Of a stretch of 33,545 bases of DNA, positions 5,287-27,008 are shown one piece after another. Source of the stretch: Caldithrix sp. (GTDB taxonomy: Bacteria; Zhuqueibacterota; Zhuqueibacteria; Oceanimicrobiales; Oceanimicrobiaceae). The first letter of the stretch is position 1. Each line of letters begins with the position of its first letter. The notes under the pieces were generated by a model. It ran no database searches, was not told the origin of the DNA, and saw only the letters and a program-made list of their open reading frames with translations. The stretch is from contig SMXC01000196.1 of the NCBI GenBank assembly GCA_004356825.1, positions 1-33,545 on the forward strand. The letters run 5' to 3'. A program made the position numbers and the translations under genes.

Positions 5287-5329
5287 TTCTTAAAGTTCAT
5301 TTTCCAATCAATGATATTTTATATTTGGC

Positions 5330-5378
5330 GTTCAAGTTTTAGCTTGCTGTCTATCAATTTTCAAGCTGAAGCTTGAAC
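5330..5378. repeat. Hairpin repeat of the GAACTACAAAC family
   Basis: GTTCAAG-tttta-GCTTG and CAAGC-tgaag-CTTGAAC form opposing arms in the gap between the caspase-like and VWA genes, followed by ACTACAAAC. The same tail follows hairpins at 19944 (ACTACAAAC) and about 24986 (ACTCCAAAC), so it is one copy of a dispersed repeat. Confidence 0.5.
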
Positions 5379-5387
5379 TACAAACAA

Positions 5388-7670: not shown

Positions 7671-7697
7671 TCTAAAATTTTAATGTTATTTCTAAAT

Positions 7698-7767
7698 GCT
7701 GGGTGCTTGATGCTTGATGCTTGATCCAGAATCCAGAATCCAGCATCCAGCACCCAGCATCCAGAAA
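7698..7767. repeat. Ten-unit heptanucleotide array forming a hairpin
   Basis: The 70 bases divide exactly into ten 7-base units: GCTGGGT, three GCTTGAT, two CCAGAAT, then CCAGCAT, CCAGCAC, CCAGCAT and CCAGAAA. The two halves are near reverse complements, so the array can fold into a long stem. It ends at the base before the stop codon of the DUF4175-like gene (- strand) and fills most of the gap to the next gene. Confidence 0.85.
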
Positions 7768-10700: not shown

Positions 10701-11178
10701 ACAACAGAAGCGCCATGGCAAAGCTGCTCCAAACAACTGCGCTTTTGCTGCGAATGGATTTTGATAAATTAAGAGGTTGTATATGAAAACGGGCGTCATC
10801 CAAAAGTTGCGCCAGCAGACGGGGTGACGCTCCGGGATTTTCAGCACCGCCCAATTCAACTGCAGTAACCAGACGGTCTTCCAATTGCGGGTGCTTTTCT
10901 TCTAAATAACGGGCGAGCTGAATTTCAGTGGGAACATTCAGAAACGGCCGCACGATCGTCCAAAATAAAGTTACGACAAAAGTGGTGACAATTCCTGTCA
11001 TCAAAAAGAACCGGGCTGCTCCCTCTAATTCCAAAAGGAAATCCAACAAAAAAACAAACAAGAGAGCCGCAATTGTACTAAGCAACGTGATCGAGCCGCC
11101 CTTCAGTAGAATCAACATTTTCCAGTGTTGACAGACTTTGTTGATGCGTCTTTTTAGAGTTTCATGTCGGGCGTTCAT
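7768..11178 (-). CDS. DUF4175-like giant membrane and coiled-coil protein
   Basis: An 1136-residue protein. The N-terminus has two adjacent membrane helices (about 20-46 and 52-77), then NVPTEIQLARYLEEKHPQL and EDRLVTAVEL, a signature I associate with DUF4175-type proteins, then a third helix near 148-168. Residues about 180-510 are beta-rich, probably several Ig-like periplasmic domains. From about 530 to 1040 it is a very long Gln/Arg/Glu-rich coiled coil (for example ARRQQQLNRQTRDLARKELT), broken by a Gly/Gln-rich linker. An AGGTGA sits a suitable distance before the ATG. Its position between the two VWA genes is typical of MoxR/VWA clusters in FCB and Acidobacteria genomes (recalled, not searched). 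It may scaffold the complex. The exact function is unknown. Confidence 0.75.
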   Translation of the reverse strand: MNARHETLKRRINKVCQHWKMLILLKGGSITLLSTIAALLFVFLLDFLLELEGAARFFLMTGIVTTFVVTLFWTIVRPFLNVPTEIQLARYLEEKHPQLEDRLVTAVELGGAENPGASPRLLAQLLDDARFHIQPLNLSKSIRSKSAVVWSSFAMALLLFLGAMIPANLDFFALKTNRIFSPWKFRNAKLFPTFEVSPGNIRIPKGSAREIRADITGFEPEEMVLYYSEGDSSWKKSEMDITGDKGVFVYNFFSIQNETKYYVKADQRLSDIFTFTVYDAPKVTRVDLTYIYPKYTGLKSKKETDTGDVWAPEGTIIKMTAVADKRLYKAEIMLGENEKKLETSISADSVVTASFKVTSDSFYKIRITDTDGLTNDPPPEYYIHALPNQPPVLTIERPGYDIKASMLEEVPIKIEVRDDYGLPSLKLIYTVNGSDSKELTLSTRKTSRENSSGQFEQIQEFTAEYLFYLEDLKVQPGDFLTYHIQADDSRDSKNPESVTSEIFFISVRSFDKEFYRSMSQGGQGGSSGMGGRLSETQKEIIVATWKLQQKIQKIDADEAANNIDIIIESQKNLRDVTQSTLMQMQQRSLFSRESDGEIPKFYSTAIEAMERALVELDSKQIKDALVPEREAYQSLLRAEVQLKKIQLQRAQGQGAGSQATMDELAQLFDDEMDKLKNKYETLRQNQQQQKNEQMNDALKKIKDLARRQQQLNRQTRDLARKELTLQAKKRQIEELRRKQEDIRRKTQELTRQMQRKGQSNSNLPQEVQDDLRRAANEMNKALNNLRQDNMNRAAAKGTQALNRLKRLQEKLQQNQKESLRRQIESLEQQFQRMVEAQKNLTEDVENLKNQELPNQNQLREAREKQATLKDNFETAKGQVNSLSRQARENKKEFSREINKLAQEMKRAGLDKKMESAENLLQRNRLNSALQAEKDILNSLEQLREKLTNLRGIFAETDEEKLDLALNQTRRLREKLESMKRETQGLARTKNSQEEKPGQSGQSSENRQAGQGERGGPEQTVDARSLDWNKRLAENLRNLQHIQRAVQGDSSLSREFRKLSQNMAGIIRSFSGGLPERFQLIEEQVLDPLKAFEAELAHKLEMMKNKEKLFLAREEKIPPEYEALVEKYYEALSKTKQ

Positions 11179-11362
11179 GTAGAAATCACCTGATTAAAAA
11201 ACCTTTCTTTTAGAACCCACCAAGCGCCAGTGTTATTATCTGGAGTCATTACGATACGCTGTCATTTAAGTAAGATATCTTTACAACTTTAAATAATGAC
11301 GCCAACAGTAAATGACTTAATGACCTTTGTTTTGTCATTTGTTTCACTGTCAGCCAATTTTT
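11179..11362. repeat. Intergenic cluster of GTCATT/AATGAC motifs
   Basis: The 184-base gap upstream of the DUF4175-like gene holds six GTCATT or AATGAC motifs in both orientations, including a hairpin GTCATTTAAG (11261-11270) against CTTTAAATAATGAC (11287-11300). It may be a degenerate repeat element or a binding region for a regulator. No promoter boxes are convincing. Confidence 0.4.
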
Positions 11363-13417
11363 CTACCGATATGTCCTATTTGCTAACCAGGTCTCCGCTA
11401 TCAAAAGTAGAATTACTCCCAAGATCACAAACCGCCAAATCTTTTGATTTTTTTCCTGCTGCTCGTCCAGCTTGACGCCGGAGAAGGAAACGGATTGGAT
11501 GTTAGTCTCCGAAACCCGGGCAACCAAGTCCTGAAGTTCATCCGGCGGAATTGGCGTCAAGTCGGATTCCCGCGGGTCAACATTGACAGCAACGTAACTC
11601 GTCTTGTTGTTTTTCCGAATTTCATAAATACCCGGTTCGGAAGTGTCATAGAAAACATCTCCCTCCGGCACGACTTTTTTACCCGAAGGGTATTTAACTG
11701 CACAATCCGAATTATTTAAAGGGGTTAACTGTGCATTTCGCAAAGGTACTGAATCTCCAACTAACAGTGACTTTTGACCTTTTCTCTCCGAAGCGACATA
11801 ATCTAAAGTTTGATAAATCAGTGGAAGAAATATTGCTTTGACCGGCAGGTTATTCCATTCGGCGTCGAGGCTCGAGGTAAAAAGAATGACTTTCCCAGCC
11901 CCGACTTTACGTTCCAAAATCGCCGGATTGCCATCATCAAAAAAAGCGAGGGTGGATTCGGGGGTTAATGGTTTTGTTTTAAAATATTGATAGAATTGTG
12001 CGGAGCTAGGGTCGCTCTGTCCGGGGTCTGCAAAAAGTCTAAAGATCGAATGTTGAAAATCAACCTCGGCCAGAATCACACTGGTTTCACGGTTCACAGA
12101 TTTAAAAGCTGGTTCCGTCAAAAAGGCCGGGGTAAGGTCAGCAAAGAACCGGTTAAACGTCTTGGGCTTCACATTATCACCAAGTGCGATAAGAAGCCCA
12201 CCGCCGGCCCGTACATAGTAAGTCAGTCGTTGTAGTGTTTCGCGGTCCAGGTTTTTAACGTTGGCCAGAATGACCGCCCGGTAGTTGCTGAAGTTATATG
12301 CTCTGGCTTTTTGGGGAATCGTCGTAATTAAGGAGTATTTAGCCAAATCCGGAAGATTGATCGCTCGTTCCAAAAAAAATAATTCGTCTAGAACAGTATC
12401 TTTATGCGGCTCTCCGTTAATCGCCAGCAACTGAGCTTTTGTTTTATCCTCCAGAACAAAAAAATAGCGATTATCGATTGTTATACTTTCATCTTCAAAA
12501 ACAACATCTATATTTCCGGAAGCGTTTCCTTGCGGAAAGCGGACACGTTTGAATTGTACAATTTGTTCCTCATCCGCAGAAACAGTCACGTTTCTTTGTG
12601 CGATTTTTTTATTATTGATATTTAAGACCACCTTAAGTCGTTTTTTATCATTGCCGTAGTTTTTGATGCGCGTTAACACATCGCCGGTTTGAGCAGAACG
12701 ATGCTCTCTTGAAATGTGCACATCTACAACAGCGATATTGGAAAATTCAGATACTTCAATCGGCACAAAATTCAAGTTAATTCCGGCTTGGACTGTCCAG
12801 TGCGGGTTCAAGCTCTCGCTGGCAGATTTCTGGAAGTCGGATATCAAGTGAATGGTCTTCGAAGCTAACTGAGATTCGAGCAGAACAGTCTCGGCGGTCT
12901 GGATGGCGTTTAGGTAATTCGTACTTTGTTTGGAAAGCGAAAAACGATGTTCAAAATTTAATAACCCGGAAAAATCATCTCCAGTTTCAGCAATTGCTTC
13001 AGTGGTCTCGGAAAACTGCATGATAGTGACCCGATCGCCCGGTCGCGCAGATCTCACAATTTCCTTTGCCTTGGCAATCGCCTTTTTGAAATTGTCTTCA
13101 TATCCCATGCTGAACGAATTATCTACCAAAACAACAAATGCTTTGGATTCATCGCCCCAAACAGAGCTCCCCTCAACATTATTAAAAAAGGGACGAGCAA
13201 ACGCAAAAGCAAGAAAGGCAAAAGCTGCTATCCGCATTAGTAAAAGCAGCAGTTGTTTTAGCTTTTGAGACTTGAACTTTTTTGCAGGATCGACTTTCAA
13301 GAAGCGCATCGCCGCAAAGGGAAGTTTAATCGCACGATTACGCTTAATAAAATGAATAAGGATCGGAACAGACACAGCTGCCATTCCCCAAAGAAATAAA
13401 GAATTTAAAAAAGTCAT
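11363..13417 (-). CDS. BatA-like VWA membrane protein
   Basis: A 684-residue protein with the BatA-type N-terminus: a first helix (LFLWGMAAVSVPILIHFI), the RNRAIKLPFAAMRFL segment, and a second helix ending in AFARPFF near residue 78, the pattern of TIGR02226-type proteins. The VWA domain follows with an intact metal site D99-x-S101-x-S103 (VVLVDNSFSM). A second half holds beta-rich DUF-like sequence and VRAGGGLLIALGDN, resembling the glutamine-amidotransferase-like region of the 5388-7670 protein. The last helix is near 660-678. It starts 12 bases after the DUF58 stop codon, so the two are almost certainly co-transcribed. BatA proteins in other bacteria were linked to aerotolerance and to MoxR partners; the molecular role is not established. 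Confidence 0.88.
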   Translation of the reverse strand: MTFLNSLFLWGMAAVSVPILIHFIKRNRAIKLPFAAMRFLKVDPAKKFKSQKLKQLLLLLMRIAAFAFLAFAFARPFFNNVEGSSVWGDESKAFVVLVDNSFSMGYEDNFKKAIAKAKEIVRSARPGDRVTIMQFSETTEAIAETGDDFSGLLNFEHRFSLSKQSTNYLNAIQTAETVLLESQLASKTIHLISDFQKSASESLNPHWTVQAGINLNFVPIEVSEFSNIAVVDVHISREHRSAQTGDVLTRIKNYGNDKKRLKVVLNINNKKIAQRNVTVSADEEQIVQFKRVRFPQGNASGNIDVVFEDESITIDNRYFFVLEDKTKAQLLAINGEPHKDTVLDELFFLERAINLPDLAKYSLITTIPQKARAYNFSNYRAVILANVKNLDRETLQRLTYYVRAGGGLLIALGDNVKPKTFNRFFADLTPAFLTEPAFKSVNRETSVILAEVDFQHSIFRLFADPGQSDPSSAQFYQYFKTKPLTPESTLAFFDDGNPAILERKVGAGKVILFTSSLDAEWNNLPVKAIFLPLIYQTLDYVASERKGQKSLLVGDSVPLRNAQLTPLNNSDCAVKYPSGKKVVPEGDVFYDTSEPGIYEIRKNNKTSYVAVNVDPRESDLTPIPPDELQDLVARVSETNIQSVSFSGVKLDEQQEKNQKIWRFVILGVILLLIAETWLANRTYR

Positions 13418-13429
13418 TGCAAAGATCGG

Positions 13430-14323
13430 TTAGTCTTTTCGACTGCGATGATTCAAGTAGCTGAAAAGTGCAAAATCCAGCGGCTTAGAAGTTTCTAACA
13501 AATGGTAATCAACGTGCATCCTGCCACAGCCTCTTTTTAGCCATGACATATGCGCCCGTAATTTTTTCATATAATTATCACGAACCAAAGAGGGTATAGC
13601 CATAAATTGTGAATCTCCTTCCATATCAACAAACTTCGTCGCGTTTTTAAAAGGAAAGGTCAATTCTGTTTCATCCATAATATGAAAGATGATGACGTCA
13701 TGACCTTTAAAACGGAAATGCTGCAGCCCGCGTAATATAGCAGCAGGGTCATCCAGCAAATCGGAAATTAAAATAATCAGACCCTTTTTATTGATGGTTT
13801 CGGCAATCTGGTGCAGCGGCATGGACATCTCGCTTTCATTGGCCGCCTCTATTTTTTCGAGGTAGCGCAAAATGGACAGCATGTGCCCTTTCTTATTTCT
13901 GGAATGAATAATCTGGTTAATCTGGTTATCATAAGTAATGAGCCCGACGCCGTCGCGCTGCTGAAAAATCATGTAACCCAGGGACGCCGTCAAGTAAGAA
14001 GCGTATTCCAACTTCGACAGGCCGTTGCCGCCGTAATTCATGGAGGCGCTGGTGTCCAGCAAAATGTGGCAGTTCAAGTTGGTTTCTTCTTCGAATTCTT
14101 TCACGTAGTACCGGTCGGAGCGGGCGTAAACTTTCCAATCGATATGGCGGATGTCGTCTCCCGGGGTGTACTCGCGGTATTCAGCGAACTCCACGCTGAA
14201 CCCCCGGTAAGGACTGCGGTGCAAGCCATAAATAAAGCCTTCAACCACGGTACGGGCGCGCAGCTCCATGCCGGAGATTTTGGAAAGAATCTTCGGGTCT
14301 AAAAATCTTATCTGGTTCGCCAT
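13430..14323 (-). CDS. DUF58 domain protein (MoxR partner)
   Basis: A 297-residue soluble protein of the DUF58 family. It shows the hallmark SPYRGFSVEFAEYREYTPG, then DDIRHIDWKVYARSDRYYVK (residues about 37-75), followed by ILLDTSASM with the DxSxS metal-site pattern of a VWA-like fold at D90-S92-S94. Its length is normal. DUF58 genes nearly always sit directly after a MoxR ATPase gene; here it does so with a 73-base gap that holds a short hairpin. The usual proposal is that DUF58 couples the ATPase to membrane VWA proteins. No strong ribosome binding site is visible before the ATG. Confidence 0.92.
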   Translation of the reverse strand: MANQIRFLDPKILSKISGMELRARTVVEGFIYGLHRSPYRGFSVEFAEYREYTPGDDIRHIDWKVYARSDRYYVKEFEEETNLNCHILLDTSASMNYGGNGLSKLEYASYLTASLGYMIFQQRDGVGLITYDNQINQIIHSRNKKGHMLSILRYLEKIEAANESEMSMPLHQIAETINKKGLIILISDLLDDPAAILRGLQHFRFKGHDVIIFHIMDETELTFPFKNATKFVDMEGDSQFMAIPSLVRDNYMKKLRAHMSWLKRGCGRMHVDYHLLETSKPLDFALFSYLNHRSRKD

Positions 14324-14336
14324 AATTCAAAAAACT

Positions 14337-14384
14337 AATTACAAATGTCAAATTACAAAACAAAGAAATTGAAAATTTGTAATT
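14337..14384. repeat. Short inverted repeat between MoxR and DUF58 genes
   Basis: AATTACAAAT (14337-14346) and ATTTGTAATT (14375-14384) are perfect reverse complements with an A-rich loop. It lies inside the operon and could be an mRNA hairpin that sets relative expression, or a relic of a small repeat. Confidence 0.5.
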
Positions 14385-14396
14385 CGAAATTGGGAT

Positions 14397-15425
14397 TTAT
14401 AGTCCTGACTTCGGTTCCGGAACCGTTTCCAAAAGCTTGCTGACAATATCCTCCGAAGTAATTTTCTCTGATTCGGCGTAAAAATTTGTTAGGATACGGT
14501 GGCGCAAAACCGGCAAAGCCAAAGCTTGGATGTCTTTAATAGAAACGTTATATCTGCCTTTCAGAATCGCTCTTGCTTTGCCGCCTAAAATGAGACATTG
14601 AGAAGCCCGCAGTCCTGCGCCCCAGCTTACCCACTTTTTAACGAAGTCAGGAGCTTTTTCACCTTTCGGTCTACTGGCAGCGACCAATCGAACCGCATAT
14701 TCAGCAACTTGCTGCGACAACGGCACTCTACGAACAATTTTTTGAAACTCCATCACTTCTTTGCCGGTAATGACGCGCTCAAGTTGCGGCACATAATCGG
14801 AAGTTGTGGAAGTTACAACCTGCACCTCCTGATCTTCAGGCAGGTAATCTACAACAACGTTGAACATAAAACGGTCTAATTGAGCTTCGGGAAGCGGATA
14901 GGTGCCTTCCAGTTCAATGGGATTCTGAGTTGCCAGAACAAAGAAAGGTTCCTCAAGGTCATAAGTGTTGCCGCCCGTTGTGACTTTGTGCTCCTGCATG
15001 GCTTCCAAAAGCGCGGCCTGTGTTTTCGGCGGCGTCCGGTTGATTTCGTCGGCCAAAATAATGTTCGCGAAAATTGGTCCTTTAACAAATTCCAAAGTGC
15101 GGCGGCCTGTTGAACGGTCTTCTTCAATGACGTCAGTGCCAATGATGTCTGACGGCATTAAATCCGGCGTAAACTGAATGCGCTTAAATTTGAGATCTAA
15201 AATCTGTGAGATGGTTTTAATCAGTAGAGTTTTTGCAAGACCCGGCACACCCGTGATTAGGCAATTACCGCCTGAGTATAAAGCCAGCATAACTTGATGA
15301 ATAACCTCATCCTGCCCAACGATAGTCTTTCTGAGTTCGCCGATGATTTTCTTATTACCATCCCGCAGTTTTTCGATAAAGACCAAGTCCTCGTTTTCAT
15401 CAACTTTTGTCACTGATTCTAACAT
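14397..15425 (-). CDS. MoxR-family AAA+ ATPase
   Basis: A 342-residue AAA+ ATPase of the MoxR branch (AAA_3 plus AAA_lid_2). The Walker A motif is GVPGLAKT (residues 59-66, with the MoxR-style Ala before Lys), Walker B is ILADEIN (123-129) followed by RTPPKTQAALLEAMQE, and sensor 1 lies in FVLATQNPIELEGTYPLPEAQLDRF. The C-terminal lid follows from about 230. GGAG precedes the ATG by seven bases. MoxR ATPases act as chaperone-like remodelers that mature or insert metal centres or assemble complexes, in concert with VWA proteins. It is the only ATPase in the nine-gene cluster and so is the likely energy source. Confidence 0.95.
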   Translation of the reverse strand: MLESVTKVDENEDLVFIEKLRDGNKKIIGELRKTIVGQDEVIHQVMLALYSGGNCLITGVPGLAKTLLIKTISQILDLKFKRIQFTPDLMPSDIIGTDVIEEDRSTGRRTLEFVKGPIFANIILADEINRTPPKTQAALLEAMQEHKVTTGGNTYDLEEPFFVLATQNPIELEGTYPLPEAQLDRFMFNVVVDYLPEDQEVQVVTSTTSDYVPQLERVITGKEVMEFQKIVRRVPLSQQVAEYAVRLVAASRPKGEKAPDFVKKWVSWGAGLRASQCLILGGKARAILKGRYNVSIKDIQALALPVLRHRILTNFYAESEKITSEDIVSKLLETVPEPKSGL

Positions 15426-15452
15426 ATTTTCTCCACTATAATATCATAAATT

Positions 15453-15577
15453 TCACCGCAGAGGCGCTAAGACGCTAAGAACATATAAGATATAAGACGA
15501 GTTTTAAAAAATAGCTAAAAGATAATGAATTTGATTTAATATTAATTTTGTCAATACTTTGCGTCTTTTGCGGTTCA
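15453..15577. repeat. Dispersed inverted repeat upstream of the MoxR gene
   Basis: The left end CACCGCAGAGGCGCTAAGA and the right end CTTTGCGTCTTTTGCGGTT are imperfect reverse complements enclosing about 85 AT-rich bases. Sequences of this type (accgcaaagacgcaaag) are familiar as dispersed intergenic elements in many bacteria. It separates the DUF4159 pair from the MoxR gene. Confidence 0.5.
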
Positions 15578-15590
15578 GGAATTATTCAGC

Positions 15591-16358
15591 TTAATGTGTT
15601 AGTCCATAAATGACGAAATTAATCCCTAACTTATAGGCCTCTGCTGAATATTCAGTTGGATACCGGGGATCATAAGTATGTTCCCAGGCGTCTCCCATGT
15701 CCATATTTCGAAGTACCAGGACCATGAGCCGATCCTGATCATCGAAGATACCCATACAGCGCGCTTCAATTCCGCCCTTTTCATAAGTTCGTCCGCCCAA
15801 CCATGCACCCAGCCCGGGAATTTGTTTGATCTTATCAAAATCATAAAAGCAGTGAAAAATCGGATGCGCCATTGGAATGTCGACAATCTCCCGGTTTTCA
15901 AAAACCATTTTCATCTGATTTACAAAGCTTTCCCATTCAAACGGGCCGTGAAAATCGTCCACCATGAGATAACCGCCTCGCAAAAGCCACTCACCTAAGT
16001 TGTCCGCTTCCGGCTGAGTTAACACCATAAAACCGACTTCAACAATATAAGCGAATGGGTAGCGAAAGAGGTCAGGATCGAGAAGCGACAAGGAAACGGG
16101 ATCATCGGCTACATTGAGAGATGTCCAGTTGCTGAGGCCTTTCATTAAATTCTGCTCCGCAAAAGGATAGTCCACAGTCCAACTCTGCCAGTGCGGGCCC
16201 ATGCGATTGCGAAGTGTGTAATTGGCGCCGCCGGAGGTGTATTGAATACGGACAAAGGTAAACTCGTCCCCGTTGCCTCCCTGGGCTTCTACTTTTTCAG
16301 AAAAACAAAAAGTCAGGGGTAGCAGAAATAGAGAAATTTTTGAAACCATCCTTGTCAT
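15591..16358 (-). CDS. DUF4159 secreted protein, copy 2
   Basis: A 255-residue exported protein with a signal peptide (residues 1-25, cut near VEAQ). DUF4159 signatures: FTFVRIQYTSGG, RYPFAYIVEVGFMVL, WLLRGGYLMVDDF, HPIFHCFYDF and YKLGINFVIYGLTH at the C-terminus. The family is seen beside MoxR/VWA clusters and has a glutamine-amidotransferase-like fold with no known activity. It lies 11 bases downstream of a paralogue sharing all these blocks, so the pair arose by tandem duplication. It has an insert around GAWLGGRTYEKGGIEARC that the other copy lacks. The ATG at 16349 is an alternative start. Confidence 0.88.
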   Translation of the reverse strand: MTRMVSKISLFLLPLTFCFSEKVEAQGGNGDEFTFVRIQYTSGGANYTLRNRMGPHWQSWTVDYPFAEQNLMKGLSNWTSLNVADDPVSLSLLDPDLFRYPFAYIVEVGFMVLTQPEADNLGEWLLRGGYLMVDDFHGPFEWESFVNQMKMVFENREIVDIPMAHPIFHCFYDFDKIKQIPGLGAWLGGRTYEKGGIEARCMGIFDDQDRLMVLVLRNMDMGDAWEHTYDPRYPTEYSAEAYKLGINFVIYGLTH

Positions 16359-16369
16359 TACCTAACTTC

Positions 16370-17170
16370 TCAGTGGGTCAGTGCATAGATAAGGTAATTA
16401 ATACCGAGTTTATACGAGCGGGTTGAAAAGGCCGGGGTCTCTTTGGGCAATTCCCAGCCGTCACCCACGTCGTTATTAAAATTGATCAGCACCATCAATC
16501 GGCCGGTATCATCAAATAATCCCCAATACTCCGGCAATTCATTTAAATAAGGAGTTGGCGCATTAATGTCATTTATGTCAAAAAAACAATGAAAGATTGG
16601 ATGACTCACGTCGAGTCGGCGGAGTTCCTGATCGGGCAGCACTTTACGGATTTCTCTCATCCAGTTATTCCATTCATGACGCCAGCGAAAGTCATCTACC
16701 ATCAAGAAACCGCCGCGGAGGAGGTATTCTCTGAGATTTTGGACCTCTAAATCTGAAAGAGTCAAATAACCGATTTCACAGGCATAAATAAAGGGATACC
16801 TGAAAATTTCATCGTCGTCAAAAGTCAAAACTTTGTTATCTTCCGAAACTTTAATATTTGTCAGTGCCTGAATCGTCAGGTTCAAATTTTTTTCAGCTTG
16901 GGGAAAATCGTGAGCCCAGGGCGGAGCGTTCGTTGAGAATCCGTAGCCGTATCGAATATTATTATCGGTCCAACGGATTCGAACAAAGGTGAAATCCTCG
17001 CCGCTGGGGAGTTGGGCTGATGCAGGCGTGAAGTTTGCTAAAATTAAGAAACAAACAAGAAACCCACCCCTGAATCTCCTCCAAGGAGGGGACTTTTCAT
17101 CTCGTGCCGACAGTCGCCGTCGGAACGTAAACCGGGGGCACAAAACATCTGTTCTACTCCATACTCGCAA
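16370..17170 (-). CDS. DUF4159 secreted protein, copy 1, with repeat-derived N-terminus
   Basis: A 266-residue ORF; the conserved part from about residue 55 (EDFTFVRIRWTDNN) matches the neighbouring DUF4159 protein: RYPFIYACEIGYL, YLLRGGFLMVDDF, HPIFHCFFDI and YKLGINYLIYALTH. A hydrophobic signal core (GGFLVCFLILANFTPASAQ) precedes it. The first 35 residues are unusual: they are encoded by palindromic repeat DNA at 17061-17141, and the listed start is a TTG inside the upstream TPR gene. No in-frame ATG or GTG lies between the repeat and the signal core, so either the TTG is used or the true start was replaced by the repeat insertion. The reading frame is kept open throughout, which argues for real expression. 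Confidence 0.78.
   Translation of the reverse strand: MRVWSRTDVLCPRFTFRRRLSARDEKSPPWRRFRGGFLVCFLILANFTPASAQLPSGEDFTFVRIRWTDNNIRYGYGFSTNAPPWAHDFPQAEKNLNLTIQALTNIKVSEDNKVLTFDDDEIFRYPFIYACEIGYLTLSDLEVQNLREYLLRGGFLMVDDFRWRHEWNNWMREIRKVLPDQELRRLDVSHPIFHCFFDINDINAPTPYLNELPEYWGLFDDTGRLMVLINFNNDVGDGWELPKETPAFSTRSYKLGINYLIYALTH
17061..17141. repeat. Two adjacent palindromic repeats inside the DUF4159 N-terminal coding region
   Basis: Part A (17061-17096) contains CCACCCCTGAATC and the hairpin CCTCC-aa-GGAGG, a type of dispersed repeat common in bacteria (often written CCCCTCC..GGGGTGGGT). Part B (17104-17141) nests CCGAC/GTCGG inside GTGCC/GGCAC. Both are read in frame, giving the Arg/Pro/Trp-rich stretch PPWRRFRGGF. 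Confidence 0.6.
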
Positions 17171-19862
17171 GTAAAATCTCCTGGGCTCGTTCGTAACTCG
17201 GGGCTATTTCCAAAGCGGCTAAAGCGGATTTCTTCGCTTCAGGTTTTCGGTCCGCTTTCAAAAACGCACTCGCTAAATCGCAGTGCGCGCCAGCCAAATC
17301 CTGAGGTTCGGTATGCAAGTTAATCTGCAACTCAGTGATAGCCTGCTCGAACTCTCCGAGAGCCAGGTAGGCGCTGGCCAATTTCTGGTGCACTTCCGGC
17401 TCAAACGGCGTAATATAAATGGCTTTCGTCAAGGCTTCAACTGCACACTCATTATTATTTGATTCCAGGCACAAATCAGCCAGCAAGTTAAGCACTCGTG
17501 CATCCTTCCCTTTTAAAGCGGTTAATGCGCTCAGCTCTTTAATTGCTTTTGACTTCTCCCCGGTTTCGATATAAATTTCGGCAAGCGCTTTGTAAGGATT
17601 TTCTTCCTCAATAAAGTTCGGAAACTGGGACTTTGCTTTTTGAAAATAGGGAATGGCGGTCTCAAAGTCGCCTTCTTTTTTATAGTACATACCAAACTGA
17701 AAATTTAGAAATGGATTGCTGGAATTTTCTTCCAATTTTTTCGACAAAAAAACCACTAAATCATTCGAATGAGCAGCAAACTCACGCGGGTCGTACGAAT
17801 AATCAATTTCGTCTAATTTATATTTCTGCACCACAAACAACTTAAATTCTTCATCAAAGGTGTTGACATTTTTGCCAAAAACTTCTTCGATAACTTGATT
17901 GGTTCCCAATCCGGCTTTGAACTTCGGAAACATCGCCAGCAATTTTTGCTGACCGTATTTTTCGACGATAAATTCTACAATCAGCGAGGCCTGAAAATAA
18001 GACAGCGTCACTTGTCCGGGGTTGGTGGGTCGATTGAAGCCCGAATCGAGATCTTTCAGCGGCAAGGTTCGGTTGCTTTTAAAAGCTGAAATAAACGGCA
18101 CATCCAACCCCATTTGCCAATGCGGTTTCAATTTAGCTGTTTCATAGACGGCAATCCCTTCGGCTAACCAGCGCGGGATACGGTTTGCCGTCATTTTTAA
18201 GTGGGTGACATGTACCAACTCGTGCCAAAGAGTCTGCCCCCAGACAAAGTCGCCTTTCGTGCGGGCGCGTGGGGAATCCATTGCGATCAAATTGCCAAAA
18301 CAAATCCCGAGGAAGGCCTGTGCCCCGGGCAGTCCAAAACACCGCACCGCGAAATCGTCGTGTTCCGGAAAAATTTCCAAAACCACGGATTCTTGAGTAT
18401 CAAAAGGGTACTTCTTATTCAATGCAGCAAAACTTTCCTCCACTAATTGTTTGGCATAAGTTGATAAAACTGCATCATCTTTCTCGTGGATGCGAATGGT
18501 AAAATGTTTTGTTTGGTGGGTTTTGTATTGAGGAAATTCATCAAAAAGGGTCAGCAAATTACCAACGTATTTATTGAATGGATCTTTTGCAAAGGCCTTC
18601 TCAAGCTCTTGTTTAGCGGCTTCCTCTTTTCCCAATCGGCTTAGGCTGGTGCCAAGTCCGGCCCGGGCAGCCCAGTTTTCGGGATCGAGCTCTAACGCCT
18701 TTTCATAGTACTCGACGGACTCTTTAAACAAATAACGTTTCGAAAGAACTTCGGCGGTTTGATAATATAAATAACTGTATTTCGGATTGATCGCCAGAAT
18801 TCGCTGCTCTTCCTCAGCAAACTTACTCATTTTTTTCATGAAGAAAAAGCAGATGGCTCGCAAAGTTCGCGAGGAAAGCGAATTTGGATTTGTCCGAAGC
18901 GGCTTATCTAAGATATCTAAAGCCCCGTCGTAATTTCCGAGAGTGATTTCCAGTTCGGCTAAAAAATCATGAACGGCCACCAAATTTGGATTAATGGCAA
19001 GGGCTTTCTCAGCCATAGTAATTGCGTTCTCAAAATTTGACTTGCTCAAACACTTGGCCAATCCCAAAAGTGCTTCAGCAGCATTTGGGTTGATTTGCAA
19101 AGCGTCGTCAAAAACGCCCTGGGCGTCCGGGATGTTGTATTTCGACAGAAAAAGCTCACCCCAGGGAATGTAGGCCTGCCACAAATTTTTATCCATCTCA
19201 GTCGCGTCGGTAAATAAATTGTTCGCATCACGGAAACGGTCGAGGTAGATACATGCCTGAGCAATAATTTGCAACTCACCGCCGGTCAAATTCGGCTGGC
19301 TTCGATAATAATCGACGAAATATTGCAGGGTCTGCCGGGCAACAGTTTTTTGCCCCCACTCCCATTGCATGACTCCCAAGTTTAAACGTGCTGAGAGTTC
19401 GTCGGGGTTTTGTTCCAACGCTTTACGAAAGTTTAACCGAGCATTTTTATAGTTACCGGTCAGATTAAAGACCTTCCCCTGAAGTGTTAAAGCAGCCGCA
19501 TTTTGGGGAAACATTTTGAGAGTTTTTTCACTTACTTTTTGTGCTTTCTCGTATTCACCCTTTTGGATGTAAACCCATGTCAATCCAACATTTGCATTGA
19601 GGATGCGGTGTTTATCATCGGTCTTGGCGAACTTCTCAAACATAGAAATTGCTTCTTCGTATTCACCTTTTTGGAACAGGTTTTTGGCTTTTTGTAAATC
19701 ATCGTTAACCGGCCCCGAAGATACAGCAACGTTTAGGAATTGAAAAAACATTAAAAGGGAGAGTAAAACCGGCAGTTTCAAATTTTTCACCAAATGATTA
19801 TTTTTCTTAAAAGAACGATGGCACAGCCCCTGAAAAATTCCGAAGGAAATAAGGCAGGACAT
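17154..19862 (-). CDS. TPR protein with gluzincin (peptidase MA-like) domain
   Basis: A 902-residue exported protein, first gene of the cluster. The signal core (LPVLLSLLMFFQFLNVAVSS) begins only at about residue 30, so GTG 19790 (VKNLKLP..) is a possible true start; neither start has a strong ribosome binding site. Residues about 50-440 hold roughly ten tetratricopeptide repeats. Residues about 450-650 form a peptidase MA-like domain with LWHELVHVTHL (HExxH) and RWLAEGIAVYE, giving the third zinc ligand Glu, so the zinc site is complete. More TPRs fill the C-terminus. Such proteins are thought to bind partners through TPRs and cleave a peptide bond with the metal site; the substrate is unknown. 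It overlaps the start of the DUF4159 gene, implying one transcript. A small mobile element abuts the listed start. Confidence 0.88.
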   Translation of the reverse strand: MSCLISFGIFQGLCHRSFKKNNHLVKNLKLPVLLSLLMFFQFLNVAVSSGPVNDDLQKAKNLFQKGEYEEAISMFEKFAKTDDKHRILNANVGLTWVYIQKGEYEKAQKVSEKTLKMFPQNAAALTLQGKVFNLTGNYKNARLNFRKALEQNPDELSARLNLGVMQWEWGQKTVARQTLQYFVDYYRSQPNLTGGELQIIAQACIYLDRFRDANNLFTDATEMDKNLWQAYIPWGELFLSKYNIPDAQGVFDDALQINPNAAEALLGLAKCLSKSNFENAITMAEKALAINPNLVAVHDFLAELEITLGNYDGALDILDKPLRTNPNSLSSRTLRAICFFFMKKMSKFAEEEQRILAINPKYSYLYYQTAEVLSKRYLFKESVEYYEKALELDPENWAARAGLGTSLSRLGKEEAAKQELEKAFAKDPFNKYVGNLLTLFDEFPQYKTHQTKHFTIRIHEKDDAVLSTYAKQLVEESFAALNKKYPFDTQESVVLEIFPEHDDFAVRCFGLPGAQAFLGICFGNLIAMDSPRARTKGDFVWGQTLWHELVHVTHLKMTANRIPRWLAEGIAVYETAKLKPHWQMGLDVPFISAFKSNRTLPLKDLDSGFNRPTNPGQVTLSYFQASLIVEFIVEKYGQQKLLAMFPKFKAGLGTNQVIEEVFGKNVNTFDEEFKLFVVQKYKLDEIDYSYDPREFAAHSNDLVVFLSKKLEENSSNPFLNFQFGMYYKKEGDFETAIPYFQKAKSQFPNFIEEENPYKALAEIYIETGEKSKAIKELSALTALKGKDARVLNLLADLCLESNNNECAVEALTKAIYITPFEPEVHQKLASAYLALGEFEQAITELQINLHTEPQDLAGAHCDLASAFLKADRKPEAKKSALAALEIAPSYERAQEILLASME

Positions 19863-20029: not shown

Positions 20030-20264
20030 GACTCTAATTTGAAGTCAAAGACTATAAAAGTGATACGAGACTGACCGTGGGCATGTTCCGCATTAAAATT
20101 CAAAATATTTGCAACCACAGGCGAGAAAAATCGTCAAATTAGAAAACTTCCCAACCCTTCTTTAAGTTATCGGTCGAGTTGATAGTAATTTAAGAGTCCA
20201 GTCAACTGAATACAAGCGTGTGGCGTAAATTTCATATTAACGATTGCAAAAAAAGGAGCAACTC
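20030..20264. other. Intergenic DNA upstream of the PDZ lipoprotein gene
   Basis: Nothing coding is seen. A spaced 10-base inverted repeat, TCTAATTTGA (20033-20042) and TCAAATTAGA (20134-20143), is present. The divergent arrangement means promoters for the - strand cluster and the + strand PDZ gene should lie in 19863-20264, but I cannot pick convincing -35/-10 boxes. AAGGAG stands before ATG 20265. Confidence 0.35.
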
Positions 20265-21335
20265 ATGAAAATCAGGAACCCTATTGCGCTAAAACTAACT
20301 CCCCTTTTTATCCTCATCTTCTCCATTCAATTTCTACTGTTAAGCTGCGGTCGTCAACATCCCCGTTCTGTGACCAGCGGCTCTGAAGACGAAGGCTGGA
20401 TTGGCGTTTACGTGCAAGATTTGGACGACGAACTCCGTCGTTATCTGGATATTAAGGAATTAACCGGTGTTCTGGTGAATGACGTCATCGATGACGGGCC
20501 TGCTGAAAAAGCGGGTTTGAAAGAGGAAGATGTGATCGTCAAGTTCGATGGCCGAAGAGTCAGGAATACCAGAGATTTAACCCGCGCCATCGGGCGCTCG
20601 GCCCCGAGTTCGAAAGTAAAAATGGAAATAATGAGAGCGGGTCGCAAAATGAAATTGACATTGCGAGTCGGAGAAAAACAGCAGTCTTCCTACAGCTTCC
20701 GGAATCGAAGTCGCAGGCGCGCGCCTCGTGTTTTTTCATTTCGAGGCAGTCGCCGGCCGTGGCTTGGGGTGCAAATGGCAAACCTCAACAAAGATTTAGC
20801 CAGGTATTTTGACGCCGATGAACAGGCAGGTGTTTTGATTCTGTCTGTTGCAAAAGATAGTCCCGCTGAAAAAGCCGAACTCAAAGCCGGTGACATCATC
20901 CTGAAAATTGATGGCGAAAATATAGCAGACACAGACGATCTTTCCGCGGTGATTTCGGATTATGGCTCCGGTGACGAGATTGAAATCGAGATTAAACGAA
21001 AAAACAAAATAAAAATCGTGAAAGTTGAATTGGAAAGATCCTCTCGCAGATCTTCTTTTGATTCCAACACAGAAGAATTAGAAGACTGGGATCGGGAAAT
21101 ACAGGAATGGAAATATAGTCTCAACGAATGGAAACACGATTTCAATAAGGACAGAATCTACGACTTAGAATCCAGAATCCGACGTGAAATTGAAAACAGC
21201 ATCGAGATTGAACTCCCGGAAATTGAAATTGAACTAAATCATATCGGGGAGGAAATCGAAAGAGAAATGCGAAGGTTAAGTGAGGAGCTAAAAGACCTGA
21301 GAATTGACGTAAGAATAAATGAGATTATTCTGTAG
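20265..21335 (+). CDS. Lipoprotein with two PDZ domains
   Basis: A protein of 356 residues from ATG 20265, chosen over the track start at 20244 because AAGGAG precedes it and the lipoprotein signal (ending LLLSC) then has normal length. PDZ domain 1 covers about residues 40-130 (GWIGVYVQDLDDELRRYLDI, DDGPAEKAGLKEEDVIVKFDG) and PDZ domain 2 about 165-260 (PWLGVQMANLNKDLARYFDA, DSPAEKAELKAGDIILKIDG); both keep the carboxylate-binding G[VL]G-like strand and the PAEKAxLKxxD turn. A linker rich in Arg/Ser joins them. The C-terminal 90 residues are a highly charged helix. There is no protease domain, unlike DegP. It probably binds C-termini of envelope proteins as an adaptor, perhaps for the neighbouring metallopeptidases; that link is inference. 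Confidence 0.88.
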   Translation: MKIRNPIALKLTPLFILIFSIQFLLLSCGRQHPRSVTSGSEDEGWIGVYVQDLDDELRRYLDIKELTGVLVNDVIDDGPAEKAGLKEEDVIVKFDGRRVRNTRDLTRAIGRSAPSSKVKMEIMRAGRKMKLTLRVGEKQQSSYSFRNRSRRRAPRVFSFRGSRRPWLGVQMANLNKDLARYFDADEQAGVLILSVAKDSPAEKAELKAGDIILKIDGENIADTDDLSAVISDYGSGDEIEIEIKRKNKIKIVKVELERSSRRSSFDSNTEELEDWDREIQEWKYSLNEWKHDFNKDRIYDLESRIRREIENSIEIELPEIEIELNHIGEEIEREMRRLSEELKDLRIDVRINEIIL

Positions 21336-21647: not shown

Positions 21648-24600
21648 ATGAAGACACGGTTTCTCATCCTTTCAATCCTGAGTTTACTTCTTTTTACAAA
21701 GCTCGCCGCCAATGAAAAATACTGGCAGCAGTTCGTTCACTACAAAATGGATGTGATGCTGCTTCCGGTTGAGCATGCTTTAACCGGCACCCAAATGATT
21801 GAGTACAAAAACAACTCGCCTGACACGCTGCGAAAAATCTTCCTACATCTTTATCCAAATGCTTACCGGAATAATAATACGATTTACGCCTCGGAAGCCC
21901 GAAAATATTATCGCAAAGTACTTCCGAGCATGAAAGATGCCGGGTATATCGAAATAGAATCCTTTCGAATCATAAACTCCGACAGTAGTGGGCAGGAAAA
22001 ATCTTTGAGCGCTTTCCATGTCAATGATACCATTTTAGAAGCTGAGTTGCCCAATCCTTTGCCGCCCGGCGGCGAACTGAAAGTTGAGCTTTCCTTCTAT
22101 TTGAAAATCAGGAAATTTAACCGCCGGGCCGGGTATCGCGAGTCCCAGTATGATTTCGCGCAGTGGTATCCCAAAGTTTGTGTCTACGACGAGACCGGCT
22201 GGAATGCCGAACCTTTCCACAACCTGGGCGAATTTTACGGCGAATTCGGGACTTTCGACGTTAATATCCAAGTGCCATTTGAGTATATTGTCGGCGCCAC
22301 CGGAGAAGTCGTCGAAGGCGATCCCGGCTGGGATTTAGTTAAAGTCGATACCTCTCTGACCAAAGCCCAATGGCGTGAGCAACTTAAAAAAACAAAAGCC
22401 GAAATTCGTAAGAAATCTGAAGAAGGCGATTTTAGAACGGTCAAATTTCACGCTGAAAATGTGCACGATTTTGCCTGGGTCACCTGCCCTGACTTTCTGT
22501 ATGAGTCGGGCGAATGGGACGGCATCCCCATCCATGTTCTTTATCGGTCGCGGGTAAAGAGCCGTTGGAGCAAAACAGCTCTGGAGCGATCTGCCCGGGC
22601 TTTGGAATGGCTGTCTGAAAAATTCGGCCGCTATCCGTATCCTCAGCTAACCGTCACTCATGGCCTCCTTCGCGGCGGCATGGAATACCCAATGCTGGTC
22701 ATGAACAGCTCGGAAAGTGAAAGTTTAATTTTGCACGAGGTCGGTCATATTTATTTTTATGGAATCCTCGGCAATAACGAGTGGAAAGAAGCCTGGCTCG
22801 ATGAAGGATTTACCTCGTTTCAAACCCGCTGGTATATGGAAACGCGTTACGGCTCACAGGGATTCGACCGCCGGGAAAGACTAAAACGCTCGACCTGGCT
22901 GCAAAAACGCCGCCCAGCCAGAACCAGCCGTGAGGCGAACCGGGCAAGGGCACTTTCTTATATGAACTCCGGACATAATGAACCGATTTCAAAACCTGCT
23001 TATACTTACAAGGAACCGGCCGGATACGGCATCAACGCCTACACCAAGGGTGCTTTCTTTTTTGACATGCTCAAATATGTGGTCGGGGATGATATTTTTG
23101 AGGAAATTTGTCACGAGTATTTTGCACGCTGGAAATTCAAACATGTCAACCGGGCAAGGTTTATGCAGGTGTGCAAGGATGTCAGTAGAATGAAGTTAGA
23201 TTGGTTTTTCGAGCAATGGCTGGATAAATCTCTCACGGTTGATTACAGCATCGGTAGCGTGGAAAAACAGAGGGTTGATTCTCTTTGGCAAACAAAAGTT
23301 TCAATCATAAAGGAAGAAAAAGGAACGATGCCGGTTGATGTGCAACTCACCACTCAATCCGGAGAAACCTTTATAAAACAGTGGGACGGTGTTGAAAAAA
23401 CAGGCGAGGTGATCTTTAAAACTTCTGATAAACCTGACAAAGTTATTCTCGATCCCACAGATGCCATTTTAGATAATTCACGTTTCAATAATTCACCTTT
23501 AAAAACAAAATTCATATTTGAATATCCAAATATGACCTTCCGACCCCGGAACGCGTTTTTAATTACCTGGCGGCCAAGCGGCTGGTATAACAAAGTTGAT
23601 AAGCTGCGTATCGGCGGCCGCATTAAAGGCTGGCAAGGCACACAAAAAAATGCGGAGATAGGTCTCTGGTTTGGTACAAATTCCCATGAATTAGATTACC
23701 GGTTCAGGCATTCCAGGCAAATTAAACCTCTGGGCGGCAGAACGCAAGGGTCGTTGATGCTCCAGAAAATGGAGGGCCGTTTCGAAATTGATGCACATCT
23801 CAGTTTCATAAAAAGTGATAATTTGACCCTTCCTCCCATGCACCGAATCTGGGTGGGATTTAATCATTCAAGACAATTAAGCGGCAAGCGGGAGCTCTAT
23901 TCGCTGCGCGAATTTAGTGGTACCGCGATCCCAACCTGGCAAACTGGCGTGGTCAATAAAGCCTACCTTCGCTATGGCGTTAACCCAAGAGGCTTAAACT
24001 GGTTTTCAAACTTAACGCTCGGCCTGGATACGGCACAAAAAGATTGGGGAAGTGATTTTACTTATACCGCAGTTTCAGCAGAATTGAAGTTCTGGTTTCC
24101 TAAAACGCAGGAAGGCCTTTCTTTGAGATTTTATACTAAAAAAATATTCGATTCAGCAGACACTCCCAGGCAGGATTTAATTTTCCTGGACGGTGCAAAC
24201 CCCCGGCAGCGTTTCAAACGTTTTTACTTGAGAAGCGATGGCGGGCTTCCGGATGGCCTGCATTATCACCTCCCGGGCGGCGGTAATCTGCGCGGTTTTT
24301 ACAACCAGCCCATTATTGGAGACGAAATATTTGCCATAAACGTTGAGGCCCGCAAACAGTTGAAACCCAAGCTTCCCTGGCAAGCTTTAAATTCCATTCT
24401 AGGCCGAATAAGTATCGCTGGATTTACAGATATCGCTGCATTCGGTTTAATAAATTTTACCAAAGATATTTTTGCAGATGCTGGTTTTGGTATTCGTCTT
24501 CAAACCCGGCTGCCGGACGATTGGTACACAATCTTTACCGCAGGCCGTAATTTAACCGTTCGTCTGGATTTTCCAATTTGGGTCAGCAAATCTTTACCGG

Positions 24601-24653
24601 GTGAAGATAACCTGCGATTTCGTTGGCTATTTGGCTTTGAGCAGGCGCTTTAA
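21648..24653 (+). CDS. M1 family zinc metallopeptidase fused to an Omp85-like outer-membrane barrel
   Basis: A 1001-residue protein with an N-terminal signal peptide (residues 1-22). Residues about 25-620 are an M1-type gluzincin: the substrate-binding GGMEYPMLVM (a variant of the GxMEN motif), zinc site HEVGH (363-367), and E386 in WLDEGF after exactly 18 residues, the M1 spacing. The catalytic tyrosine region lies in PAGYGINAYTKGAFFFDML. From about 640 the character changes to alternating beta-strands rich in Trp/Tyr, and residues about 860-1001 contain LPGGGNLRGFYNQP, GDEIFAINVEARKQL, GFTDIAAFG and FADAGFGIRLQTRLP, closely resembling the end of Omp85/D15-type barrels (GGxxxLRGY, D-x-G, G-x-G-x-R). 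This suggests a surface- or periplasm-facing peptidase held in the outer membrane. The barrel assignment is by eye. The ribosome binding site is weak. Confidence 0.85.
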   Translation: MKTRFLILSILSLLLFTKLAANEKYWQQFVHYKMDVMLLPVEHALTGTQMIEYKNNSPDTLRKIFLHLYPNAYRNNNTIYASEARKYYRKVLPSMKDAGYIEIESFRIINSDSSGQEKSLSAFHVNDTILEAELPNPLPPGGELKVELSFYLKIRKFNRRAGYRESQYDFAQWYPKVCVYDETGWNAEPFHNLGEFYGEFGTFDVNIQVPFEYIVGATGEVVEGDPGWDLVKVDTSLTKAQWREQLKKTKAEIRKKSEEGDFRTVKFHAENVHDFAWVTCPDFLYESGEWDGIPIHVLYRSRVKSRWSKTALERSARALEWLSEKFGRYPYPQLTVTHGLLRGGMEYPMLVMNSSESESLILHEVGHIYFYGILGNNEWKEAWLDEGFTSFQTRWYMETRYGSQGFDRRERLKRSTWLQKRRPARTSREANRARALSYMNSGHNEPISKPAYTYKEPAGYGINAYTKGAFFFDMLKYVVGDDIFEEICHEYFARWKFKHVNRARFMQVCKDVSRMKLDWFFEQWLDKSLTVDYSIGSVEKQRVDSLWQTKVSIIKEEKGTMPVDVQLTTQSGETFIKQWDGVEKTGEVIFKTSDKPDKVILDPTDAILDNSRFNNSPLKTKFIFEYPNMTFRPRNAFLITWRPSGWYNKVDKLRIGGRIKGWQGTQKNAEIGLWFGTNSHELDYRFRHSRQIKPLGGRTQGSLMLQKMEGRFEIDAHLSFIKSDNLTLPPMHRIWVGFNHSRQLSGKRELYSLREFSGTAIPTWQTGVVNKAYLRYGVNPRGLNWFSNLTLGLDTAQKDWGSDFTYTAVSAELKFWFPKTQEGLSLRFYTKKIFDSADTPRQDLIFLDGANPRQRFKRFYLRSDGGLPDGLHYHLPGGGNLRGFYNQPIIGDEIFAINVEARKQLKPKLPWQALNSILGRISIAGFTDIAAFGLINFTKDIFADAGFGIRLQTRLPDDWYTIFTAGRNLTVRLDFPIWVSKSLPGEDNLRFRWLFGFEQAL

Positions 24654-25337: not shown

Positions 25338-27008
25338 ATGAAAAAACGAATCTGTTTTGCAATCATTTTTTTGATGAGCGGCAAATGTGCTCTAGCTCAA
25401 CCTTTTACAAAAGCGGACACCCTGCGCGGCATGCTGACCCCGCTCCGGACCTGTTATGACGTCACTTACTACAACCTGGATATCAAAGTTGATCCGGAAA
25501 CCAAAACCGTCTCCGGCAACAACACTATCCAATTTAAAGTCGTGACGGACTTTGATAAGATGCAAATCGATCTTGTAAAAAATATGAAAATCGCTAAAAT
25601 TATGTTCGGCGAAAAATTGCTACGGTTTGAACGTGAACATGACGCCGTCTTCGTTCAATTTCCAAAGAAACTTAAAACAGGAAGTATAGAGGCCATTCAG
25701 GTCTTTTATTCCGGTGAACCGCAAAGTGCGAAAAGACCTCCCTGGGACGGCGGCTTCGTTTGGTCAAAAGATGAGCATGGCAATCCCTGGGTGGCGGTGA
25801 CGGTTCAGGGAGACGGCGCCTATCTCTGGTGGCCTAACAAGGAACATCAATCGGATGAGCCGGACAGTATGCTGATCAGCGTAACCGTGCCGCAAGGCCT
25901 GATGAATATTTCTAACGGCCGTCTGCGGATGAAAGCAGAGTTATCAAATGGCTGGACACGCTGGGACTGGTTTATCAGCTACCCGATTAATAATTACAAT
26001 GTCACACTGAATATTGGGAAGTACGCACATTTTAATGACATTTACACAAATGATGAAGGAACCCCGCTCACCCTCGATTATTATGTCATGCCCTATAATC
26101 TTGACAAGGCAAAAAAGCAGTTTCAGGAAGTCAAACCGATGCTGGCTTGTTTTGAGAAGTTCTTCGGCAAATTTCCGTTTTACCGGGATGGCTACAAAAT
26201 GGTTGAATCACCGCATTTGGGCATGGAGCACCAGACTGCAATTGCCTATGGCAACAAGTATCGATTCGGTTATAAAGGCACGGGTTCATCCGAACTTGGC
26301 ATCACATTTGATTTTATCATCATCCATGAGAGTGCACATGAGTGGTGGGGCAACAGCGTGACCTCAAAAGACATTGCCGACATGTGGATTCACGAAAGCT
26401 TTGGCGCCTACGCCGAGGCACTTTATGTCGAATGCAGACACGGCTACGAAGCTGGGCTGAAGTATCAAAACGGCAAAAGACAGGATGTACGAAATAACAG
26501 TCCGATTATCGGACACTACGGTGTCAACCATTCGGGTTCGGGCGATATGTATGCCAAAGGGTCGCTTTTTCTAAATACTTTGCGCCATGTTATCGACGAC
26601 GACAGTTTGTGGTTTGCAATCGTTTTAGGAATTGCCGAGGAATTTAAATATCAAACCATCACCACGGACGACATTGTAAGTTTTGTAAATTCAAAAACCG
26701 GCGAAGATTTCACGGCAATGTTTGACCAGTATTTGAAAAACACCGCCATCCCGGAACTGGAAATTGACGTAACCAAAAAAGGTGACAAAGTCACGGCCCG
26801 ATATAGATGGAAAGCAGATGTTGCAGATTTCACAATGCCAATTAAAGTCACCACCTCGAAAAATAAGTTTGAATTCATTTATCCTACCACTGAGTGGCAG
26901 ACCACCGAGCTTGGCGGCATCCACCCGGACGATTTCAAAGTAGCCGAGGACCTGTTTTATGTGGATGTTAAATTGAAGCGGCTTTATTTACAGGAGGGAA
27001 TTGAGTAA
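25338..27008 (+). CDS. Secreted M1 family aminopeptidase
   Basis: A 556-residue protein with a signal peptide (residues 1-21, cut near ALAQ) and a strong GGGGAGG before the ATG. It contains the N-terminal beta-saddle of M1 enzymes (YDVTYYNLDIKVDPETKTVSG), the substrate motif GMEHQTAIAYGN (GxMEN family with His in place of Asn), the zinc site HESAHEWWGN (H330, E331, H334) and E353 in WIHESFGAY after 18 residues. The catalytic Tyr region is YAKGSLFLNTLRHV. Length fits M1 proteins lacking the large C-terminal ERAP-like domain. It should remove N-terminal residues from peptides outside the cytoplasm. It is only distantly related to the M1-barrel protein upstream, from which it is separated by 684 bases of repeats, so it probably has its own promoter. 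Confidence 0.93.
   Translation: MKKRICFAIIFLMSGKCALAQPFTKADTLRGMLTPLRTCYDVTYYNLDIKVDPETKTVSGNNTIQFKVVTDFDKMQIDLVKNMKIAKIMFGEKLLRFEREHDAVFVQFPKKLKTGSIEAIQVFYSGEPQSAKRPPWDGGFVWSKDEHGNPWVAVTVQGDGAYLWWPNKEHQSDEPDSMLISVTVPQGLMNISNGRLRMKAELSNGWTRWDWFISYPINNYNVTLNIGKYAHFNDIYTNDEGTPLTLDYYVMPYNLDKAKKQFQEVKPMLACFEKFFGKFPFYRDGYKMVESPHLGMEHQTAIAYGNKYRFGYKGTGSSELGITFDFIIIHESAHEWWGNSVTSKDIADMWIHESFGAYAEALYVECRHGYEAGLKYQNGKRQDVRNNSPIIGHYGVNHSGSGDMYAKGSLFLNTLRHVIDDDSLWFAIVLGIAEEFKYQTITTDDIVSFVNSKTGEDFTAMFDQYLKNTAIPELEIDVTKKGDKVTARYRWKADVADFTMPIKVTTSKNKFEFIYPTTEWQTTELGGIHPDDFKVAEDLFYVDVKLKRLYLQEGIE

Follow-up and report, generated by a model that had tools for sequence, protein, structure and literature searches.

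The window, that is the whole stretch of 33,545 nucleotides analysed here (Caldithrix sp., contig SMXC01000196.1), contains an open reading frame of 1,001 residues with an ATG start and an in-frame stop directly 5' of it (Table 1). The encoded protein combines an M1 peptidase part with a C-terminal domain predicted to form an outer-membrane barrel. A preliminary description had placed an M1 peptidase fused to an Omp85-like barrel at positions 21,648–24,653 of the plus strand. This position and the length of 1,001 residues are right, and the fusion is borne out by profile comparisons, by the fold search and by where the motifs fall. The AlphaFold2 model of the full-length protein (mean pLDDT 92.1, pTM 0.90) shows M1 domains I–III, a linker (residues 602–635) and the barrel, in this order. 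The putative signal peptide is modelled as a low-confidence helix. Architecture and motifs are kept across phyla at 26–59% identity and are thus not due to chance.

Table 1. Features of the M1-Omp85 locus. Positions are those of the window; residue numbers refer to the fusion protein.
Feature	Residues	Position	Strand	Basis
Tandem-PDZ lipoprotein-like gene, DegP-type PDZs without protease domain, upstream		20244..21335	+	PDZ, DegP family matches
M1-Omp85 fusion ORF, 1001 aa	1-1001	21648..24653	+	ORF list; Pfam M1; structure model
Putative Sec signal peptide, without lipobox	1-22	21648..21713	+	by eye from translation
M1 peptidase part	25-601	21720..23450	+	Pfam, profile and fold search, structure model
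GGMEYP exopeptidase motif	343-348	22674..22691	+	alignment
Zinc site HEVGH-x18-E	363-386	22734..22805	+	alignment
Tyr465, catalytic-type	465	23040..23042	+	alignment
Predicted 16-strand Omp85-type barrel	636-1001	23553..24650	+	profiles, fold search, motifs, structure models
GGGNLRGF, L6 signature	877-884	24276..24299	+	alignment, model; PMC4490367
FTDIA, FxDxG-type	926-930	24423..24437	+	alignment, model; PMC4490367
Second M1 peptidase, 556 aa, HESAHEWWGNSVTSKDIADMWIHE, no barrel, downstream		25338..27008	+	ORF, Pfam

The M1 part consists of an N-terminal β domain, the catalytic domain and the β-sandwich domain III (residues 533–601). It matches the Pfam model Peptidase_M1 with 69.8 bits (cut-off 27.7, E 3.2e-19). 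The complete HEVGH-x18-E site noticed earlier is exact, with His363, Glu364, His367 and Glu386. GGMEYP is a variant of the GAMEN motif in which Glu346 is retained and Tyr replaces Asn. Against the PDB, the family profile matches tricorn factor F3, ERAP, PepN and LTA4H, and M1 aminopeptidase structures dominate among the Foldseek matches listed for the full-length model. The fusion protein shares the zinc site, the exopeptidase Glu, the Tyr and domains I–III with these aminopeptidases. It differs from them in the GGMEY variant and in the barrel that follows in the absence of domain IV, as no helical domain is present between domain III and the barrel in the AlphaFold2 model. Domain IV is common in M1 peptidases and is not treated as defining; membership of the family follows from the peptidase domain in spite of this absence. 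Judged by its zinc site, exopeptidase Glu and Tyr, the protein is an intact-site candidate aminopeptidase of the M1 family. Most members of the M1-barrel family retain every catalytic residue in the alignment.

The C-terminal barrel and related Omp85 proteins

Sixteen strands starting at residue 636 are present in the full-length model as well as in a model of the barrel alone (mean pLDDT 92, pTM 0.88); the last strand is short. The preliminary description had set a closed barrel at residues 620–1001 against a soluble sandwich or fewer than about 12 strands. The barrel is what both models predict, but its start is shifted from residue 620 to about residue 636.

An Omp85 domain was not recognised when the window protein was scanned as a single sequence with Pfam and NCBIfam, and Pfam scans of its relatives gave weak Omp85 matches in 1 of 18 and 2 of 45 members. 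A search of curated families alone would miss the barrel. Four further lines of evidence were therefore taken. In profile-profile alignments of the hhalign type, the barrel matched TamA-like Omp85 proteins of related genomes with probabilities of 97.5–97.8 (P 7e-12 and 9e-13), and the alignment covers the C-terminal part of Omp85 up to its last residue. A profile of 45 barrels from many phyla was compared to all PDB sequences. The first match was BamA (4k3c, E 2e-6) and the best seven were all BamA, TamA-type or POTRA proteins; a profile of the KSB1-class barrels, unlike the cross-phylum one, found nothing real in the PDB. As M1 structures swamp the Foldseek listing of the full-length protein, the barrel-only model was made, and each of the 50 matches listed for it belongs to TamA or BamA, with E-values reaching 3e-9 and moderate TM-scores of 0.44–0.53 by query. 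In related genomes, strong matches of the barrel profile sit in M1 reading frames or in fragments truncated by a contig end or a frameshift. Among the weak matches that come next, several coincide with sites of the Pfam Omp85 profile. In many relatives the terminal strand is OMP-like and the last residue is aromatic.

Omp85 proteins carry the signatures (V/I)RG(Y/F) at L6 and (F/G)xDxG on strand 13, and these two motifs make the lid lock in FhaC, TamA and BamA (PMC4490367). The GGGNLRGF, D-I-A and GFGIR motifs named in the preliminary description are all present, the latter two as FTDIA and as DAGFGIR (residues 944–950). In the model, LRGF lies in the long loop L6 between strands 11 and 12, and Phe926 and Asp928 are located on strand 13. 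The Gly of the second signature is Ala here, whereas many relatives have F.D.G. Arg882, Gly883, Phe926 and Asp928 are conserved to at least 90% in the alignment of relatives. On the basis of models, profiles and motifs, the C-terminal domain is a predicted 16-strand Omp85-type barrel.

BamA and TamA have the same 16-strand fold, the RGF/RGY of L6 and the FxDxG of strand 13, and are homologous to the barrel at profile level. However, they possess POTRA domains where the fusion protein has an enzyme domain. No POTRA was found in Pfam scans of the window protein and its relatives, and residues 602–635 do not adopt the α/β fold of a POTRA in the model. Since the barrel comes after M1 domains I–III and the linker, the M1 domain takes the POTRA position. 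For lack of a POTRA the protein is not classed as BamA, TamA, PlpD or TpsB.

Closest among known architectures are fusions of an enzyme to Omp85 as in PlpD, the patatin-like Omp85 protein of P. aeruginosa, which also has an N-terminal enzyme and a 16-strand Omp85 barrel (PMC11116518). PlpD carries a patatin lipase, with a POTRA between it and the barrel, whereas the enzyme domain of the POTRA-less fusion protein is an M1 metallopeptidase according to Pfam and a patatin domain is not present. PlpD was formerly thought to export its enzyme domain (type Vd secretion) but retains it in the periplasm (PMC11116518). BepA is a zinc peptidase (M48) acting at BAM (PMC8423444), and likewise places a zinc peptidase beside an Omp85 barrel. 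BepA is a separate protein of another peptidase family, whereas the link in the fusion protein is covalent.

The available text of Heinz & Lithgow 2014 (PMC4104836) distinguishes ten Omp85/TpsB subfamilies; none of these is described there with M1 and the word 'peptidase' does not occur in the main text. Its 'Metallo' and 'WD40' groups resemble the fusion protein in having non-POTRA N-terminal domains on an Omp85 barrel. As described there, the former is defined by PF00149 (Metallophos in Pfam, a metallophosphoesterase model) and the latter carries a propeller, neither being M1. No published description of an M1-Omp85 fusion was found in the open-access papers searched, although such a search is not proof of absence.

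A second peptidase-barrel design was observed in the same genomes, in a protein of 1,009 residues (L184:2890-5916, minus strand; G000:C21:7889-10915), in which Peptidase_MA_2 (HELVH...E) is followed by a PD40 propeller and, at the C-terminus, by a match to Omp85 of 24.7 bits (cut-off 24). Each of the 21 genomes searched has relatives of it, and several per genome are common. Possibly this is the 'WD40' group of PMC4104836, whose available text has the propeller and no peptidase. With two joined designs found, the idea of a functional link between zinc peptidases and Omp85 barrels is strengthened.

Distribution, genomic neighbours and a zinc-less clade

A scan of GTDB genomes returned at least 560 relatives. 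Full-length fusions among them come from KSB1, Marinimicrobia/Fidelibacterota, Gemmatimonadota, Krumholzibacteriota, Latescibacterota, Bacteroidota, Calditrichota and others. The barrel is present in 22 of the 53 genomes of the home phylum. In an unrooted tree of the M1 part, barrel-less relatives are scattered (11 changes, with some of the rows counted as barrel-less cut by contig ends, such as L082 and L174). This scatter would fit an old fusion followed by repeated loss. Plasmid records gave partial matches only, none over 80% of the query. One M1-barrel protein (G033:C326, L178) is almost identical to another (L136) from a record titled Bacteroidetes HyVt-473, which reflects either a transfer in the recent past, contamination of a bin or a renamed taxon.

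The tandem-PDZ gene also lies directly upstream of the fusion gene in a congener (G001) and in G003, and the same two genomes have a barrel-less second M1 peptidase near downstream. Seven loci from the Marinimicrobia clade have DsbD and a thioredoxin-like gene ahead of the fusion gene. Most of these loci have cyclophilin and patatin genes upstream too, several have pyrimidine-synthesis genes and in five of the seven HtrA is encoded directly after the fusion gene or near it. Cyclophilin and patatin genes are also found near the fusion gene in two KSB1 loci. In most phyla the neighbours are not conserved. Elsewhere in the window (4252-19862, minus strand), a MoxR-type ATPase, DUF58, BatA/VWA proteins, two DUF4159 genes, DUF4175, a large TPR protein with a Peptidase_MA_2 match and a C13 peptidase match are encoded; by these matches the region is a MoxR/BatA-type cluster.

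The same genome encodes a second full-length M1-barrel protein (G000:C159:6704-9613; L002, L059), which is 33% identical to the window protein. Its zinc ligands and GxME are replaced (YELSQ...R), and in other zinc-less members the catalytic Glu is gone too. All ten zinc-less proteins are from KSB1 or its relatives in the class of the window. They form a single branch with a support of 100, which requires one change and lies within the active proteins. Between two species of the genus, dN/dS is 0.125 for the zinc-less gene and 0.117 for the active gene. Over a comparable stretch, ω of the zinc-less gene is 0.146 in the M1 domain and 0.080 in the barrel; both domains are under purifying selection. 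Thus, the zinc-less copy is kept for some function that is independent of the zinc site. As this clade lost the zinc site and kept the fold, selection in the family acts on more than catalysis. The active and the dead paralogue do not form obligate pairs: one genome (G027) shows the dead copy only, and in two others (G012 and G024) the dead copy is accompanied by a member of a different active clade. In the sister species the zinc-less paralogue is split into two overlapping frames (G001:C287, 4212-4928 and 4921-5334) by a frameshift or an assembly error.

Possible functions of the fusion protein

In the favoured reading, which has about an even chance, the fusion protein would be an aminopeptidase that is anchored in the outer membrane, faces the periplasm and serves the quality control of envelope proteins or the trimming of peptides. 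We infer its location, orientation, activity and substrate as follows. The protein would be exported by Sec and inserted by BAM. Its barrel would reside in the outer membrane and hold the M1 domain on the periplasmic side; with an even number of strands, both barrel ends are probably periplasmic. The M1 domain would sit directly below the barrel mouth, where BamA and TamA have their POTRA domains. There it may trim or degrade peptides and unfolded or mis-assembled envelope proteins, acting together with HtrA/PDZ proteins. The fusion would be the covalent counterpart to the pairing of BepA with BAM.

Several observations are consistent with quality control. The M1 zinc ligands, the exopeptidase Glu and the Tyr are intact, and the high-confidence model predicts two domains with the barrel straight after domain III. 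The barrel is homologous to BamA and TamA, and the DsbD, HtrA, cyclophilin, PDZ and soluble M1 neighbours are recurrent. By analogy, PlpD (PMC11116518) and BepA (PMC8423444) may serve as precedents. On the other hand, the neighbourhood is unconserved in most phyla and one clade has lost the zinc site.

The strongest rival is an insertase or translocase of the Omp85 type, in which M1 replaces the POTRA as the receiver of substrates and catalysis is secondary; this is rather unlikely. M1 would grip N-termini or extended strands and pass them to the barrel. The lid-lock residues Arg882 and Phe926/Asp928, conserved to at least 90%, would suit such a role, as would the monophyletic zinc-less clade with its purifying selection (ω of 0.146 and 0.080 in M1 and barrel) and the joining of strong barrel-profile matches to M1. 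However, most family members retain every catalytic residue, the genomes have separate Omp85 proteins of the BamA/TamA type and PlpD exemplifies an Omp85 barrel put to a different use. With a similarly low probability, M1-Omp85 may be a further Omp85 subfamily with a peptidase fold as POTRA-like substrate receiver, in which the ancient dead KSB1 sister would be a pure chaperone or insertase beside the active one.

Lower probabilities are given to surface display and to coupled peptide uptake. In the former, the barrel would export its own M1 domain, which then digests external peptides. A single chain with signal peptide, barrel and enzyme does resemble the layout of autotransporters, and surface peptidases would be plausible in protein-degrading bacteria. 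Yet the closest precedent, PlpD, keeps its enzyme periplasmic (PMC11116518), the M1 part is large and folded, the L6 lid-lock motif is conserved and the recurrent neighbours are periplasmic folding factors, all of which makes self-display quite improbable. The preliminary description had suggested cleavage at the point of passage, with peptides crossing the barrel and M1 cutting them at its mouth during uptake or release. This is least probable of all. The covalent link and the predicted position of M1 at one barrel end would agree with it. In Omp85 barrels, however, L6 occupies the lumen and normally keeps the barrel shut, and the lid-lock residues are conserved here; furthermore, no gene for a transport partner was consistently found among the loci compared. 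Periplasmic quality control agrees with the neighbouring genes no less well than cleavage during passage through a pore does.

With the fusion, the superfamily responsible for building the outer membranes of bacteria, mitochondria and chloroplasts would gain a proteolytic architecture that lacks POTRA domains. This architecture is widespread among phyla of which few members have been cultured. It may provide a single-chain system for studying how proteolysis is coupled to outer-membrane assembly, and its zinc-less sister clade would be a natural experiment that parts binding from cutting.
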